Assembly (NCBI GenBank): GCA_026387665.1
Contig: JAPLLG010000013.1
Location: 62,001 to 126,000 of the forward strand
DNA from: Nitrospirota bacterium
GTDB taxonomy: Bacteria > Nitrospirota > Nitrospiria > Nitrospirales > Nitrospiraceae
Length of the DNA: 64,000 nucleotides
Direction: 5' to 3'
In this document: positions 7,628 to 48,704 of the stretch, piece by piece
Numbering within the stretch: position 1 is the stretch's first letter
How the letters are laid out: each line of letters opens with the position of its first letter
Notes under the pieces: generated by a model
The model's input: only the letters and a program-made list of their open reading frames with translations
What the model was told of the DNA's origin: nothing
The model's database searches: none
Made by a program: the position numbers and the translations under genes

Positions 7628-9007
7628 ATGGCTACGCGATTAATCACACCCGCTCGCCCGAGCAAAAAGAAGACCACTATCGGTTTCGTCAACCTGGGTT
7701 GTTCGAAGAACCAGGTCGACTCAGAAATCATGTTAGGCACCTTAGTCACAGGCGGGTTTGCCCTGACCGATGATCCGAAAAAAGCCGAAGTCGTTATTAT
7801 CAATACCTGCGGCTTCATCGAAGAGGCCAAGCAGGAGTCGATCGATACGATCATCGCCCATGGTAAGTTGAAAGAATCGGGCTCCTGCCGCGTCTTGATT
7901 GCCGCAGGCTGTCTGGCCCAACGGTATCAAGGTGACCTCCTCAAGCAATTACCGGAACTGGATGGGGTGGTAGGAACCGGCGAGTTCGGGAAGATTGCGG
8001 AGATCTGCCGAAACCTCCTGGCACCGAAGAAACGGCAACAGAGGCTCTGGATCAGCGAGCCTCCTTACCTCTACGACGCGGATGCGCCGCGGCTCCGTCT
8101 CGGGAAGTCCCATAGCGCCTATGTAAAAATTGCCGAGGGCTGCAATCGCAATTGCGCCTTCTGCGCCATCCCCCTGATGAGGGGCAAACAGAAAAGCCGC
8201 CCGGTGGAATCGATCGTGGCAGAAGCCAAGCGCCTCGCGTCGGAAGGCGTGAAAGAAATCAACCTCATCTCCCAGGATACGGTGAACTACGGCGTCGATC
8301 TTGGCCTGCGCCAAGGCCTCACCACACTGCTTCGCGAGCTGGTCAAGGTGAAGGACTTGCACTGGATCCGTCCCTTCTATCTCTATCCGCAACAGGTCTC
8401 GGACGAGCTGCTGGATCTCTATGCCGGAGAAGAAAAGATCACCAAGTATATCGATATGCCCCTGCAGCACATCAACGACCGGATGCTCAAACGGATGCAC
8501 CGGTTAGGCGATCGGGCCGCCATTACGTCTCTCGTCGACCGGATCAGGACGCGCATTCCCGGCGTCACCTTCCGCACGGCCTTCATCGTGGGATTTCCAG
8601 GAGAGACGGAGCAGGAATTCGAAGAACTGAAAAGCTACGTGGAAGAGGCCGGGTTCGATCGGGTGGCGGTATTTTTATATTCGGACGAGGAAGATACCCC
8701 GGCCGTCGGGCTCGACGAGAAGGTCGAGCGATCGGTCATGGACGAGCGACGGAATGAAATCCTGGCCCTCCAGGAAGAAATCGCGTCAGCCAAGGGCCAG
8801 GCCCTGATCGGCTCCGTGATGGAGGTTTTGGTCGAAGGGGTTTCAGAGGAAACGGAGCTGCTGCTGGAAGGGCGCCATGAAGGGCTGGCTCCTGAGATCG
8901 ACGGGGTCGTCTACATCAATGACGGATCCGCCTCGGCAGGGGAGATCGTCAAGGTCGAGATCACCGATGCAGCGCTCTACGATCTGGTCGGCCACATCGT
9001 CACGTAA
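7628..9007 (+). CDS. rimO: Ribosomal protein S12 methylthiotransferase RimO
   Basis: 459 aa with the RimO layout. The N-terminal UPF0004 domain has cluster cysteines in NLGCSKNQVDSE, INTCGFIEEAKQESI and AAGCLAQRY. The radical-SAM motif CNRNCAFC follows (AEGCNRNCAFCAIPLMRG), and a C-terminal TRAM-like region from about residue 390. NLGCSKNQVDSEIM is typical of RimO rather than MiaB. It methylthiolates an Asp of ribosomal protein S12. Its TAA stop is followed at once by an inverted-repeat element. Confidence 0.93.
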   Translation: MATRLITPARPSKKKTTIGFVNLGCSKNQVDSEIMLGTLVTGGFALTDDPKKAEVVIINTCGFIEEAKQESIDTIIAHGKLKESGSCRVLIAAGCLAQRYQGDLLKQLPELDGVVGTGEFGKIAEICRNLLAPKKRQQRLWISEPPYLYDADAPRLRLGKSHSAYVKIAEGCNRNCAFCAIPLMRGKQKSRPVESIVAEAKRLASEGVKEINLISQDTVNYGVDLGLRQGLTTLLRELVKVKDLHWIRPFYLYPQQVSDELLDLYAGEEKITKYIDMPLQHINDRMLKRMHRLGDRAAITSLVDRIRTRIPGVTFRTAFIVGFPGETEQEFEELKSYVEEAGFDRVAVFLYSDEEDTPAVGLDEKVERSVMDERRNEILALQEEIASAKGQALIGSVMEVLVEGVSEETELLLEGRHEGLAPEIDGVVYINDGSASAGEIVKVEITDAALYDLVGHIVT

Positions 9008-9153
9008 AGGGCTGCTGAAAAAAACCGCCAGCAGGGGGCGGGATGGCCAGAAGGAGCCCCCCCTGTGCTCGCGCAACGCGCGGCTTAAGAAAGTCCTCGT
9101 TGGACGCGCGCAGTAGAGGGCTCCTCCTGGCCACCCTGCGTGTTAACAGGCTA
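9008..9153 (+). repeat. Stop-abutting inverted-repeat element, B type, copy 1
   Basis: The element starts directly after the rimO TAA. It opens with AGGGCTGCTGAAAAAAA, contains a long imperfect stem (TGGCCAGAAGGAGCCCC with GGGCTCCTCCTGGCCA), and a GC-rich core with CTGTGCTCGCGCAACGCGCG and CGTTGGACGCGCGCAGT. The same core occurs at 44523-44719 in the same orientation relative to its upstream gene. The outer right end (AACAGGCTA) is less well preserved. It may act as a transcript-end hairpin, a mobile repeat, or both. Confidence 0.7.
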
Positions 9154-9181
9154 CTCTCATCGGAAGTACTATAGGCACACG

Positions 9182-10045
9182 ATGGCACCACGAAAAGAAT
9201 CTGTCGTCCTCCTGATTCACTGCAAAGATCGCCGGGGCATTGTGGCCCAGGTCTCCGGCTTCATCCACGACTTCGGCGGAAACATCCTCGACTCGGAACA
9301 CCATACGGATGAAGAGACAAACGAATTTCTGATGCGTATGGAGTTTGCCACGGAGGGGTTGCAGATTCCGCCCGATGAGATCGCGACGGCCTTTGCTCCG
9401 GTCGCGAAAACCTTCGAGATGCGCTATGAGGTTCGCCCTTCCAGTCGCCGCACGAAAGTCGCGATGTTGGTCTCGAAGCAGGATCACTGTCTGGCAGATT
9501 TGCTCCAACGGCACAGGCGCGACGAATTGCACATCGATGTCCCCGTGATTATTTCCAATCACGACACCTGCGCAAGCTGGGCCGAGCTGTTCAAAATTCC
9601 CTTCTCCGTCTGTCCCGTGACCAAGGAAACCAAGCCCCAGCAGGAGCAGCAAGTGCTCTCCCTGCTGAAAGATCATCGCATCGAGCTGGTCGTTATGGCC
9701 CGGTACATGCAGATCCTCAGCGGTAACTTTCTTTCACAAGTCGGCTGTCCTGTCATCAATATCCACCACTCATTTTTGCCGGCCTTCATGGGAGCCAATC
9801 CCTATCGGCAGGCCTATGATCGGGGAGTGAAAATCATCGGGGCCACAGCACACTATGCCACGGAAGATCTGGACGAGGGTCCGATCATCGAGCAGGACGT
9901 CATGCGGGTGGGCCACCGGGATACAGTCGATGATTTAGTGAGGAAGGGCCGGGACCTGGAGGAAATTGTGTTGGCCCGCGCTGTGCGCCGCCACGTTGAA
10001 CGACGCGTGCTGGTGTATGGCAGAAAAACCGTCGTCTTCGATTAG
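9182..10045 (+). CDS. purU: Formyltetrahydrofolate deformylase
   Basis: 287 aa from ATG 9182; an upstream in-frame extension would read through the end of the repeat. An N-terminal ACT domain (VLLIHCKDRRGIVAQVSGF) is followed by a formyl-transferase-type domain with INIHHSFLPAF, GANPYRQAYDRGVKIIGATAHY and DEGPIIEQDV. The catalytic Asn/His/Asp pattern of PurU is present (N in VINIHHS, H in ATAHY, D in LDEGP). It hydrolyses 10-formyl-THF to formate and THF, balancing one-carbon pools together with the glycine cleavage genes nearby. Its TAG stop is directly followed by a repeat. Confidence 0.93.
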   Translation: MAPRKESVVLLIHCKDRRGIVAQVSGFIHDFGGNILDSEHHTDEETNEFLMRMEFATEGLQIPPDEIATAFAPVAKTFEMRYEVRPSSRRTKVAMLVSKQDHCLADLLQRHRRDELHIDVPVIISNHDTCASWAELFKIPFSVCPVTKETKPQQEQQVLSLLKDHRIELVVMARYMQILSGNFLSQVGCPVINIHHSFLPAFMGANPYRQAYDRGVKIIGATAHYATEDLDEGPIIEQDVMRVGHRDTVDDLVRKGRDLEEIVLARAVRRHVERRVLVYGRKTVVFD

Positions 10046-10169
10046 CAGGATACTGAAAAAGTCCGCCAGCTTCGTTCTCGCATCGTTCAGACCCTCAACG
10101 TACCCTCCGAGTACGCCTCGGACCTTCACTCGCTGCGGCCTTGCTGGACGGCCTTTTTGAGTATCCTGC
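10045..10169 (+). repeat. Stop-abutting inverted-repeat element, A type, copy 1
   Basis: A 125-bp element beginning at the last base of the purU stop (TAG, then CAGGATACTGAAAAAG). Its right end is the reverse complement (CTTTTTGAGTATCCTG), giving terminal inverted repeats of about 25 bp that continue into CGCCAGC/GCTGGACG. A second copy at 48582-48704 has about 84% identity by eye. Differences in the stem are matched on both sides. Interior palindromes such as CGTACCCTCCGAGTACG add structure. Confidence 0.8.
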
Positions 10170-10178
10170 AACATGCAA

Positions 10179-10204
10179 GATGGGGCAGCACTTGCTGCCC
10201 CATC
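10179..10204. terminator. Bidirectional hairpin between purU and degP
   Basis: An 11-bp perfect stem (GATGGGGCAGC and GCTGCCCCATC) with a 4-nt loop lies between the convergent purU and degP genes. There is no clear T-tract on either side, so termination is an inference from position and stem strength. Confidence 0.5.
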
Positions 10205-10217
10205 GCTACTGTAATCC

Positions 10218-11729
10218 CTAGATTTTTGCGCTGAGGAACAGCGCGTTGCCGCGCCGGTCGATCAAGATCAAGGCATTCTCGCCCTTTTTCAATCTGGACG
10301 AAACCTTCTCAAACTCCTTCACCGACTTGACCGGTTGACGGTTGATTTCACGGATCACATCCCCCCTCATCACCCCGGCCTTCTCCGCGCCGCTATCCGG
10401 CTCAACCGCTGTCACCACAACGCCCTTCCCCTTGACCCCGAGTTCCTTCGCTGTATTCCGATCCAGATCCTGAACTGCCACCCCGGCAAAGGCATAGTCC
10501 GCCTCGCCAGTCTCAGCCTTGGCAATCTTTGTGCTGTCAGGCTGTTCACCGACTATCACAGTGAGATCCTTCTCGTGGCCCTCACGGATTACCCGGATCG
10601 TCACCTTCGCGCCCACCGCTGTTTTTGTCACCTGCCGCTGAAGCGTGACCGCGTCTTCGACCGGCACACCCTGATAGGCCGTGATGATATCGCCTTGCCT
10701 CAGGCCTGCCTGACTCGCAGGGCCGTCATCCTTCACGTCGCTGATCAGAGCGCCCTTCGCATCTTTGAGGCCGAACGATTTCGCTAAATCCTGATTGAGA
10801 TCCTGAATCGAGACTCCGAGAAACCCTCGCACGACCTTGCCGCTCTTCACCAAACTTTCATAGATCGGCTTGCTCATGCTGGTCGGCACGGCGAAGCCTA
10901 CTCCTTGATAGCCGCCGGTTTGAGAAAAGATCGCCGTATTAATCCCCACCAGTTCGCCTTTGGTATTGACCAAGGCGCCGCCGGAATTTCCCGGATTGAT
11001 CGCCGCGTCTGTTTGAATGAAGTCTTCGTACTGGGTGATGCCCATGCGGCCTCTGCCCAATGCGCTCACAATGCCGAGGGTGACAGTGGAGTTCAGGCCG
11101 AAGGGATTGCCCACCGCCAACACATATTCCCCGACTTGCAATTTCGTGGCATCGCCCCAGGAGACAGTCGGAAGATTCTGTCCATCGATCTTCACGACGG
11201 CCAGATCCGTCTTGGGATCGGCCCCCACAATCTTGCCGGCAAACTCACGCTTGTCCGGTAACGTGATCGTGACGGTGCGCGCTCCTTCGATCACATGGTT
11301 ATTGGTCAGAATGTATCCGTCTTGTGAAACGATAACGCCGGAACCCTGTCCGCCGCCCCGATGTTCCCGTGGCTCACCGGGACCAGGGCCCTGCGGCCCA
11401 CGAAACCCGCGAGGGCCAAAGGGTCCCCCCGGTCCTCCAAAAAACTCCTCCATCCGTTCACGCAACTCATCCTGTCCGCCCCGGCTATCAGCCACCTTCT
11501 CGACCGTCACGGTCGTAATGTTGACCACGGCCGGCGTGACCGCTTTTGCGACCTCCGTAAATCCATTCGAGGGAGCGGCGTTCATCGTCAAGGCCACCGG
11601 CGTCGCTGTCGATGCAGCAGGGCTTGACGCATGGGACGGAGCAAGCGATTGACCGCCCCAGATTAGAAGGGCGCTCAACGCCGCGACCGCAATGGCACGT
11701 CCGATAGTCTGACGAACAGGCTGTCTCAT
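10218..11729 (-). CDS. degP: Periplasmic serine endoprotease of the HtrA/DegP (MucD) family
   Basis: 503 aa from ATG 11729, which has a near-perfect AAGGAGG Shine-Dalgarno. An N-terminal signal or anchor (residues 11-30, AIAVAALSALLIWGGQSLA) is followed by a Gly/Pro-rich linker near 98-120. The trypsin-like domain has His145 (TNNHVIEGA), Asp175 (DPKTDLAVV) and Ser249 (INPGNSGGAL). Two PDZ domains follow at roughly 300-385 and 410-500. It degrades or refolds damaged envelope proteins. It lies downstream of, and in the same direction as, a two-component system, which suggests an envelope-stress unit. Confidence 0.93.
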   Translation of the reverse strand: MRQPVRQTIGRAIAVAALSALLIWGGQSLAPSHASSPAASTATPVALTMNAAPSNGFTEVAKAVTPAVVNITTVTVEKVADSRGGQDELRERMEEFFGGPGGPFGPRGFRGPQGPGPGEPREHRGGGQGSGVIVSQDGYILTNNHVIEGARTVTITLPDKREFAGKIVGADPKTDLAVVKIDGQNLPTVSWGDATKLQVGEYVLAVGNPFGLNSTVTLGIVSALGRGRMGITQYEDFIQTDAAINPGNSGGALVNTKGELVGINTAIFSQTGGYQGVGFAVPTSMSKPIYESLVKSGKVVRGFLGVSIQDLNQDLAKSFGLKDAKGALISDVKDDGPASQAGLRQGDIITAYQGVPVEDAVTLQRQVTKTAVGAKVTIRVIREGHEKDLTVIVGEQPDSTKIAKAETGEADYAFAGVAVQDLDRNTAKELGVKGKGVVVTAVEPDSGAEKAGVMRGDVIREINRQPVKSVKEFEKVSSRLKKGENALILIDRRGNALFLSAKI

Positions 11730-22394: not shown

Positions 22395-22625
22395 ATGAAG
22401 AGCATCTTGATGGCGATCATGGCAGTGGCAGTGGCAGTGACGTTCAGCGCTCCTTCCTTCGCGGCCGAAGAGAAGAAGGCGGAGAAGAAGGACGAGAAGA
22501 AGGGCGGCCACGTCCTCGTGTACGGCGAAGAGAAGAAAGAGAAGAAGGACGAGAAGAAGGGCGGCCACGCCGACACGTTCGGCGACAAGAAGGATGAGAA
22601 GAAGAAAGACGAGAAGGGCAAGTAG
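22395..22625 (+). CDS. Small secreted Lys/Glu-rich repeat protein
   Basis: 76 aa from ATG 22395, preceded by AAGGGG as ribosome binding site. A signal peptide covers about residues 1-22 (MKSILMAIMAVAVAVTFSAPSFA, cleavage after AFA-type site). The mature 53 residues are almost only K, E, D and G, with two tandem units of the form EKKDEKKGGH-x(5)-G and one histidine each. The gene has its own leader structure and a strong terminator, so it is likely real and well expressed. Family unknown. The GGH histidines could bind metal; this is an inference. Confidence 0.75.
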   Translation: MKSILMAIMAVAVAVTFSAPSFAAEEKKAEKKDEKKGGHVLVYGEEKKEKKDEKKGGHADTFGDKKDEKKKDEKGK

Positions 22626-22654
22626 TCCATTTTCTTCGGCGAATCTAGCCAGCT

Positions 22655-44495: not shown

Positions 44496-44522
44496 GCATG
44501 GGCCTCATCCAATTGACACATA

Positions 44523-44719
44523 GCAGGATGCTCAAACAGTCCATCCAGCAAGGCCGCAGCGAGTGACTAGAGATGGTTCTTCCGCGCGTGCGGGTTTACC
44601 TCTCTGATGGACCGGATGAGTCCCCCACTGCGCGCGTCCAACGAGGCCCTTCCGAGGGCGCGCGTTGCGCGAGCACAGGGGACTCACCGGGCCATCCCAC
44701 TCTTTTTTCAGCATCCTGC
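44523..44719 (-). repeat. Stop-abutting inverted-repeat element, B type, copy 2
   Basis: A 197-bp element bounded by GCAGGATGC and GCATCCTGC. On the minus strand it starts with the TAG stop of moxR (TAG, then CAGGATGCTGAAAAAAG). Its interior shares the B core with 9008-9153 (GTGCTCGCGCAACGCGCG, CGTTGGACGCGCGCAGT). The left end contains a segment of the A type (CCAGCAAGGCCGCAGCGAGT), so it looks like a mosaic. It separates moxR from DUF58 inside an operon. Confidence 0.75.
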
Positions 44720-45660
44720 TACACGGGGACGGGAACGGTTTCGACGATATCCAATACCAAACGCTCCGCCTGGTCGAAGCTCTGCGTCCTCATGCCATGG
44801 GTCCTGTTCAACATGACGCGATGGGACAGCACGATCGGCGCCAGCTCCTTGATATCGTCGGGAAGGCAATAGTCCCGTCCGCGAACGACCGCCAGGGCCT
44901 TGGCCGCCTTGCTCAGAGCCAGCGCGCCTCTCGTACTGACTCCCAGGGATAACAGTTCGCTCTGCCTGGTCGCCTGCACGATGGCGAGCAGATAGTCCGT
45001 CACATGCTCTTCCATATGGACCTGGTCCACCGTGGCCTGCAAGGCCACGACGTCCTGCGCCGAGAGGACGGCGCGCAGACTCTCGGCTGGATGCAGGGAA
45101 TGGGGACGGTCGAGCACCTTCCGCTCTTCTTCAATCGTGGGGTACCCGATACGGAGACGCATCAGAAACCGGTCGAGTTGGGATTCCGGCAGGGGGAAGG
45201 TCCCATGGTACTCGGCGGGATTCTGAGTCGCGATGACCATGAAGGGCTGCTCTAGCGGATGCGTCTGATTATCGACGGAAATCTGCGCTTCGCTCATCGC
45301 TTCCAGCAGACTGCTCTGGGTCTTTGGCGTGGTGCGATTGATCTCGTCGGCCAGCACGATGTTGGCGAAGATCGGACCGGGAATGAACTCGAACCCCTGC
45401 TTTTGCCGGTTGAACATGGAAACGCCGACGATGTCGGACGGTAAGAGGTCGCTGGTGAATTGAATGCGTTTGAATGAACAGTCCAGCGATCGGGCCAAAC
45501 TGTGGCCCAGCGTGGTCTTGCCGACGCCGGGCACATCCTCCAGCAGCAAATGGCCGCGTGCCAGGAGGCAGACCACAGCCATTTCGATCACATGGGATTT
45601 CCCCTTGATGACCAGCGCAATATTGTCCTGGATCGCCCGGATAATGTGGGTGGAACTCAT
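44719..45660 (-). CDS. MoxR-family AAA+ ATPase
   Basis: 313 aa. Walker A is LLEDVPGVGKTTLGHSLA, Walker B VLADEINRTTPKTQSSLLEAM, sensor 1 MVIATQNPAEYHGTFPLPESQLDRF. The C-terminal lid domain ends with DDIKELAPIVLSHRV. MoxR ATPases act as chaperone-like factors with VWA/DUF58 partners. It is the first gene of the moxR-DUF58-tgpA operon. Its stop codon is the first three bases of a repeat boundary (TAG|CAGG). Confidence 0.94.
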   Translation of the reverse strand: MSSTHIIRAIQDNIALVIKGKSHVIEMAVVCLLARGHLLLEDVPGVGKTTLGHSLARSLDCSFKRIQFTSDLLPSDIVGVSMFNRQKQGFEFIPGPIFANIVLADEINRTTPKTQSSLLEAMSEAQISVDNQTHPLEQPFMVIATQNPAEYHGTFPLPESQLDRFLMRLRIGYPTIEEERKVLDRPHSLHPAESLRAVLSAQDVVALQATVDQVHMEEHVTDYLLAIVQATRQSELLSLGVSTRGALALSKAAKALAVVRGRDYCLPDDIKELAPIVLSHRVMLNRTHGMRTQSFDQAERLVLDIVETVPVPV

Positions 45661-48581: not shown

Positions 48582-48704
48582 CAGGACGCTGAAAACGCTC
48601 GCCAGCGTCGTTCTCGCATCGTTCAGACCCTCAACGTACCCTCCGGGTACGATTCGGGCCTTCACTCGCTGCGGCCTTGCTGGACAAACGTTTTGAGCGT
48701 CCTG
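48582..48704 (+). repeat. Stop-abutting inverted-repeat element, A type, copy 2
   Basis: A 123-bp element starting right after the TAA of the CDGSH gene: CAGGACGCTGAAAACG at the left, CGTTTTGAGCGTCCTG at the right. The interior (CATCGTTCAGACCCTCAACG) is identical to that in copy 1 at 10045-10169. Stem differences between copies are compensated on both sides. Confidence 0.8.

Follow-up and report, generated by a model that had tools for sequence, protein, structure and literature searches.

Probable composite miniature transposons and a REP-like hairpin family directly behind genes in a Nitrospirota genome

Genomes of Nitrospira, nitrite oxidisers that are hard to manipulate, carry hundreds of intergenic repeats, for which the analysis described here offers an explanation. 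The question is raised by two related elements, at 9008-9153 and 44523-44719, in a 64,000-nt stretch of DNA from a Nitrospirota bacterium (hereafter the window; part of contig 13 of a 2.64-Mb assembly in 14 contigs, 99.83% complete). These ‘B’ copies share sequence at their extremities with the ‘A-type’ elements of the same window and enclose a different core. What are they, and how did similar ends come to surround dissimilar interiors? Our verdict is that the repeats are composite miniature transposons together with a REP-like hairpin family; the two B copies themselves are probably composite MITEs with IS5-type ends, carrying an independent B hairpin.

Both copies are present as a sequence-only reading had described them, with 74 nt of one 84% complementary to the other (Table 1). 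Its further descriptions were borne out in detail: a common head (CTGAAAAA) lies at the gene-facing end of each of the two window copies, the flanking stems differ between them (GAGCCCC/GGGCTC vs. GAGTCCCC/GGGGACTC), and an A-type segment at the other end of the 44523 copy is 91% complementary to the A copy at 10126-10169. The structured strand of the hairpin, here called the T strand, is the minus strand in the first copy and the plus strand in the second. The left end of the first copy starts 1 base past the TAA stop (9005-9007) of a MiaB/RimO-like gene, and its far (right) end has been lost, leaving the left end with no right partner. The gene next to the second copy (stop at 44719-44721) is, by its sequence motifs, presumably that of a MoxR-type ATPase, and the gene stopping at 10043-10045 is presumably purU. 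Rfam at gathering score yielded two tRNAs only in the window; below that score, weak and far-below matches appeared at 9027-9141 and none at 44500-44740. Elsewhere in the window, three 57-nt tandem repeats (22459-22629) run just beyond a small predicted Lys/Glu-rich gene (22395-22625).

Table 1. Positions of the B copies and A-type elements within the window
Feature	Position	Strand	Basis or context
Left transposon-type end GGGCTGCTGAAAAAAACCGCCAGCA, first B copy	9009..9033	+	compared with relatives' ends
B hairpin, first copy; arms ~9040-9063 and 9116-9141 flank the core	9040..9141	-	pairing
48-nt B core (apical domain), first copy	9066..9113	-	
A-type end and adjacent A-type arm (CAGGATGCTCAAACAG...GGCCGCAGCGAGTGA), second B copy	44524..44566	+	91% and 87% complementary to A copies
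B hairpin, second copy; 44606-44627 pairs with 44676-44698 as its arms	44606..44698	+	
48-nt B core, second copy	44628..44675	+	
Transposon-type end TTTTTTCAGCATCCTG	44703..44718	+	abuts stop 44719-44721 (TAG on minus strand) of presumed MoxR-type ATPase gene
A-type element, CAGGATAC... to ...GTATCCTG	10046..10168	+	directly past TAG stop 10043-10045 of gene read as purU
Second A-type element of the window (CAGGACGC...GCGTCCTG)	48582..48704	+	

The A-type ends, of which the host genome contains 307 within 2 mismatches (control, 1), have the layout YTAG followed by CAGGATGCTGAAAAAG ... CTTTTTGAGCATCCTG. Transposase-protein loci of three families, from relatives only, were screened for such ends, and two of the 83 loci among the matches listed, L393 and L390, have paired A-type ends at transposon spacing. 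L393 measures 1319 bp and is flanked by CTAG on both sides; L390 (1326 bp) has its left end at a contig edge, so that only the right flank is readable. In both, the two ends match the A-end consensus at 13 of 15 bases, a similarity short of identity; 18 of 189776 positions in 30 PF01609 loci reach 12/15. Their 366-aa proteins pass the IS5-family model NF033581 (280.6 and 236.5 bits, cut-off 140) and also match PF05598 and PF01609. The ends of the window copies may accordingly be described as terminal inverted repeats of the kind on which an IS5-family transposase would act, with CTAG as its target. Counting against the MITE reading, no full-length element with an exact A-type end was found among the 83 listed loci. 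The host genome gave no match for any of the transposase and reverse-transcriptase families searched (PF01609, PF13358, PF01797 and PF00078), and its 50 A copies include no identical pair (best, 97.6%); for these two reasons, the A-ended family looks old and stranded there.

The flanks of the elements bear on the mode of insertion. A copies have YTAR at the left flank in 44 of 88 cases and at the right flank in 8 of 88, the left flank reading mostly YTA and then GCAGG. Left and right flanking four-mers are identical in 1 of 88 copies, against a shuffled mean of 1.8; target-site duplication is thus not detectable, which also counts against a MITE. A TA-target (Tc1/IS630-type) element was rejected, since the right flank reads TA in only 11 of 88 copies and PF13358 was not found in the host genome, as was mobilisation by a reverse transcriptase, PF00078 not having been found there either. 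CTAG is rare in the window, which has 37 sites where its base composition predicts 234; stop codons coincide with 10 of them. Because more than a quarter of the remaining CTAG sites lie at TAG stops, a rare target may in part account for elements placed exactly behind stop codons, without being the full explanation: 26 of the 37 sites, those at stop codons included, lie wholly inside predicted genes, and the target alone therefore does not force the position of the elements.

The B hairpin proved to be a repeat in its own right. A 17-base part of its core has 72 matches in the host genome at up to 2 mismatches (39 exact; control, 7), and 195 copies were collected, 45 distinct ones from the host genome and 150 from other loci. 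In T orientation (ACTGCGCGCGTCCAACGAGG...), a near-constant 48-nt core forms the hairpin tip and sits on a stem of ~20 pairs whose sequence varies, with 134 different left-arm 14-mers among the 195 copies, the commonest in 29. Pairing is nonetheless kept: the arms score 30.7 on average in host copies and 31.0 in the others, vs. 15.0-15.1 when partners are exchanged among all 195 copies. When the 45 host copies are aligned, both partners vary in 14 of the 23 structure pairs; 93.2% of cells are paired vs. 82.7% in shuffles, none of 500 of which was as high. B thus behaves as a high-copy extragenic palindrome that keeps its complementarity.

The sequence-only reading had defined B by the head that it shares with A, a definition that does not hold across the genome: A-type ends lie near only 14 of the 45 host copies, and 31 of the 45 have none within 110 nt. 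The B hairpin is an independent palindromic repeat, which lies between transposon-type ends in a minority of its copies. The solo hairpins, which have neither A-type ends nor an identified mobiliser, count against the MITE reading. Their flanks are pyrimidine-rich on the T strand (0.73 and 0.66 vs. 0.52-0.54 further out), and 52 of 159 solo copies have a word like TCCAAGCTTGCTCG within 110 nt (3 in shuffles), at a distance of 47-57 nt from the core in 48 of the 159. The host genome also contains a variant core family, GCGCGCGTCGAACGAGC, with another tip (GAGCAC...GTGCGCGTTCCGCGAGCA), and half cores that adjoin full B cores; L249, L021 and L089 are among the examples.

If the ends are those of a transposon, the variety of what they enclose is easily accommodated. 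A MITE transposase needs only the ends; any interior could then ride between them, and the B hairpin would be one such carried interior. A and B interiors both exist, as had been claimed, while the number of interior types exceeds two: by our own grouping there are about six kinds between common ends, including the A core, B cores in two length classes, B with a further module (CACCCGCCCAACCCTGGCGCGCC), B within B, and hairpins of simple words. The last of these, in which a short word such as GTGAAACGTGAAGC or GGTTNAGGTTNAGG recurs, form the interiors in L337, L340, L350, L317 and L302, and their arms look slippage-grown. A further module with CTTCTCACCCGCCCAACCCTGGCGCGCC or close variants separates the left end from the GGCCGCAGCGAG arm in the composites L138, L150, L172, L182, L183 and L204. 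In L059, L097 and L148 one B copy is nested in another, and such nesting may be a second source of new interiors.

Orthologous sites suggest how interiors change, and it is here that the proposal of fixed ends with exchangeable cores finds support. Behind the MiaB/RimO-like gene, 26 species carry A (13), B (6) or another interior (7), a distribution that the purU tree explains with 10 changes. Doubt attaches to four of the ‘other’ labels: one element is interrupted by Ns, two retain the left end only, and one species has no clear element. When these four are removed, 7 changes remain among 22 species, and A vs. B alone requires 5 among 19. The B copy of the window has a rare left end, GGGCTGCTGAAAAA, in common with the A-cored orthologues L302, L303, L304, L309 and L310, and outside these loci a single A element out of 73 has it. 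Such sharing argues that the core of the window copy was changed in place, and the copy reads as an in-place core swap. Two relatives with small assemblies, L313 and L325, retain nothing of the element but its left end, directly before the purU start region.

At the site behind moxR, the presence of an element varies as well. The site is empty in 14 of 26 species, while the remainder have an A, a B or another interior; on the best tree this pattern takes 10 changes, of which 7 are between empty and filled and 5 of these are forced by well-supported branches, each tree having nine inner branches without support. L344 was labelled ‘other’ at this site, although its interior reads as a diverged A core. 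The right junctions of the filled species look alike, so some gains may have spread by recombination. In L349 and L351, what seems to be an A-like element lies here the other way round, after a stretch resembling the CAGGATGCGG start of L350. The most likely route for in-place swaps of interiors is recombination, with the ends and cores that dispersed copies share as the sites of exchange.

The same comparison can be made for the stems. Among 43 orthologous B pairs, taken from the loci at hand and in some cases sharing a locus, 24 have different stems or shifted pairing and 19 have the same stem; these 19 differ by 46 single, 5 double and 5 other changes. Because 24 of the 43 stems differ and single changes dominate in the rest, stem variety seems to owe more to the exchange of entire hairpins than to compensatory change within a site. 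The orthologous copies of L206 and L361 have one arm in common and differ in the other, and a second B copy lies close by, a pattern that likely reflects recombination inside the conserved 48-nt core. Many well-paired stems of unrelated sequence could also come from one-step template switching in hairpins (quasi-palindrome correction), which perfects stems without selection. Core positions 12 and 40 fit such a process, with C->G and G->C in 41 and 41 of 191 copies and no one-sided cell in this pair among the 45 host copies. We consider it very improbable as the general explanation, as single changes prevail in the orthologous same-stem pairs and correction would not leave fourfold more G-T than A-C pairs in the stems, as described below.

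Composite MITEs do not by themselves predict how the elements are placed relative to genes. Genes were called with a home-made codon-usage finder, for which 27 window ORFs served as the training set. For the host B copies with two called neighbours (n = 36), the right side in T orientation faces a gene stop in 30 and the left side in 4 (p = 6e-6); at other loci (n = 141), the corresponding numbers are 104 and 39. A median of 42-43 nt separates the core from the stop. For the 82 A elements that were placed, a gene ends towards the left end in 60, with the stop within 3 nt in 50 of these, and towards the right end in 34, with the stop within 3 nt in 3. Copies inside genes number 0 and 2 for B (host and other) and 0 and 1 for A. 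The T strand is mostly the template strand of the preceding gene. This bias counts against a plain DDE transposon, for which insertion in both orientations is expected.

Hairpins directly behind stop codons in a single orientation are also what would be expected of transcription terminators or 3'-UTR elements, the apparent exchange then being the replacement of one working hairpin by another. The strong pairing and the A5/T5 runs beside GC-rich stems in A ends agree with such a function. The sense strand, however, folds less well: A elements have a fold energy of -66.5 kcal/mol on the T strand vs. -57.9 on the sense strand (lower on T in 81 of 88), and the sense strand carries A-C mismatches. 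In L006 and L074, the T run has been exchanged for paired non-T bases. A terminator scan of 8900-10300 found 2 sites vs. a shuffled mean of 1.1; one is inside the 9008 element, reading against the gene, and both are on the minus strand, with none in sense and none in the A element at 10046. Together with the species that have no element behind moxR, these results make a functional RNA or terminator a quite unlikely explanation.

The strand asymmetry of the B stems is best seen in their wobble pairs. With stems scoring <20 excluded, no position is represented by more than 164 of the 179 distinct stems; between stem positions 3 and 20, read in T orientation, G-T pairs number 198 and A-C pairs 51, and on the opposite strand these numbers would be swapped. 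The excess persists without positions 9, 10, 17 and 18 (86 vs. 32) and is gone at positions 22-25 (15 vs. 23). It follows that the structure is carried by the template strand of the preceding gene. The fold energies of B copies differ little (-61.4 on the T strand vs. -59.3, lower in 134 of 195). In A elements, the transposon-type ends make up the ten outermost pairs, where G-T (22) and A-C (23) are balanced; such a lack of bias is expected if the ends are read as double-stranded DNA. Mutation bias was rejected as the source of the G-T excess, since C->T (74) and G->A (85) changes in the core occur in similar numbers, with similar rates in paired A columns; cruciform DNA was likewise set aside, as it should give no strand asymmetry.

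One better-paired strand, a fixed orientation and a left-flank preference without detectable duplication would all be produced by a REP/RAYT- or IS200/IS605-like system, in which the transposase, of the Y1 (HUH) type, recognises hairpins in single-stranded form and inserts 3' of a short target (YTAG) without duplication. Y1 transposases were indeed found in 14 of 31 genomes searched, yet not in the host genome, and in relatives the 30 Y1 loci include none with element ends paired at the spacing of a transposon. These loci hold 3 A ends in 85.5 kb vs. 6 in the 64-kb window, although some come from families that may lack the elements. Moreover, the structured strand is opposite to that with YTAG 5' of the element, and the ends resemble those of IS5-family elements instead. 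We therefore regard a Y1-type origin as unlikely.

Likely, some strand-specific role or insertion bias lies behind the single orientation and the better-paired strand. Readings that invoke a single strand stay alive because of the lack of detectable target duplications, the orientation bias, the few, non-identical full-length elements and the solo B hairpins without a mobiliser. One such reading, which we put forward tentatively and consider rather doubtful, is that the B hairpin and the inner part of A are selected as a single strand opposite the mRNA of the preceding gene. This strand could be an antisense RNA that originates behind the gene, for example one stopping antisense transcription at gene ends, or the folded bottom strand of the DNA, serving an integrase-like enzyme. 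If so, the IS5-type ends would merely spread a module with a new function or mobility of its own, and the fixed apex would be read by a protein while the stem is free in sequence.

The distribution of the B core is narrow. A scan of named genomes gave at least 120 stretches, and all 120 are titled Nitrospira, Nitrospiraceae, Nitrospirae or Nitrospirota. The core is thus not confined to the window but recurs in many Nitrospira records, and the host is itself most likely a Nitrospira. Within the order, 26 of 117 genomes contain the exact core pattern; by hand tally, these are 8 of 9 in the genus of the host, 18 of 48 in other genera of the family and 0 of 60 in other families. Neither the plasmid nor the phage collection contained a match for the B core or for the 44515-44725 copy, and mobility on plasmids or phages was rejected on the same ground.

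The reading of the two copies as composite MITEs names a plausible source of the repeat ends, and fixed sites with differing interiors constitute natural experiments. The biases of orientation and strand are measurable and go beyond a simple miniature transposon, pointing to a testable strand-specific process at gene 3' ends. A description of the A/B repeat family was not found among the best-ranked matches in the open-licence literature on Nitrospira or on MITEs and IS5; in the portion of the RepRanger report available (PMC12306157), a table of counts includes Nitrospira moscoviensis.

Like IS5-family MITEs, the elements are short and non-coding, with IS5-like terminal inverted repeats, a CTAG-type site on the left, many copies and no internal transposase gene. 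They differ from them in having no detectable target-site duplication, a strong orientation bias relative to stop codons, and several unrelated interiors, among them an independent hairpin repeat. The attC sites of integrons are folded single-strand sites in which the bottom strand is active and whose ends read RYYYAAC...GTTRRRY. The present repeats likewise lie directly behind a stop codon with the bottom strand structured, but they have no conserved ends of that form, and their host genes are dispersed rather than arranged as cassettes; an attC-like word inside the B core, GTCCAAC, reads GTCGAAC in 41 of 191 copies.

REP sequences and BIMEs, as presented in parts of PMC2817692, are palindromes that keep their complementarity and occur in mosaics. 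With them (and RAYT) the B family shares high-copy extragenic palindromes, pairing kept despite sequence change, and mosaic clusters. It differs in lacking a GT(A/G)G head, its stems having no constant head by eye, in having, in place of a short palindrome, a variable stem topped by a conserved 48-nt apex, and in that no Y1 gene was found in the genome. Tn3-derived TIMEs, according to excerpts of PMC4133298, have miniature ends that generate mosaic non-autonomous elements, as do the ends described here, although theirs are Tn3 ends. The BOX elements of Streptococcus (boxA-boxB-boxC) have other sequences and other hosts, and in the present family the ends are IS5-like and the inner hairpin occurs without them in most host copies. 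In the sections of PMC3049150 that treat them, however, BOX elements are likewise hairpin-forming and mutually inserted, with fixed end modules around exchangeable or repeated inner modules, and Streptococcus suis has two kinds of ends around one boxB.
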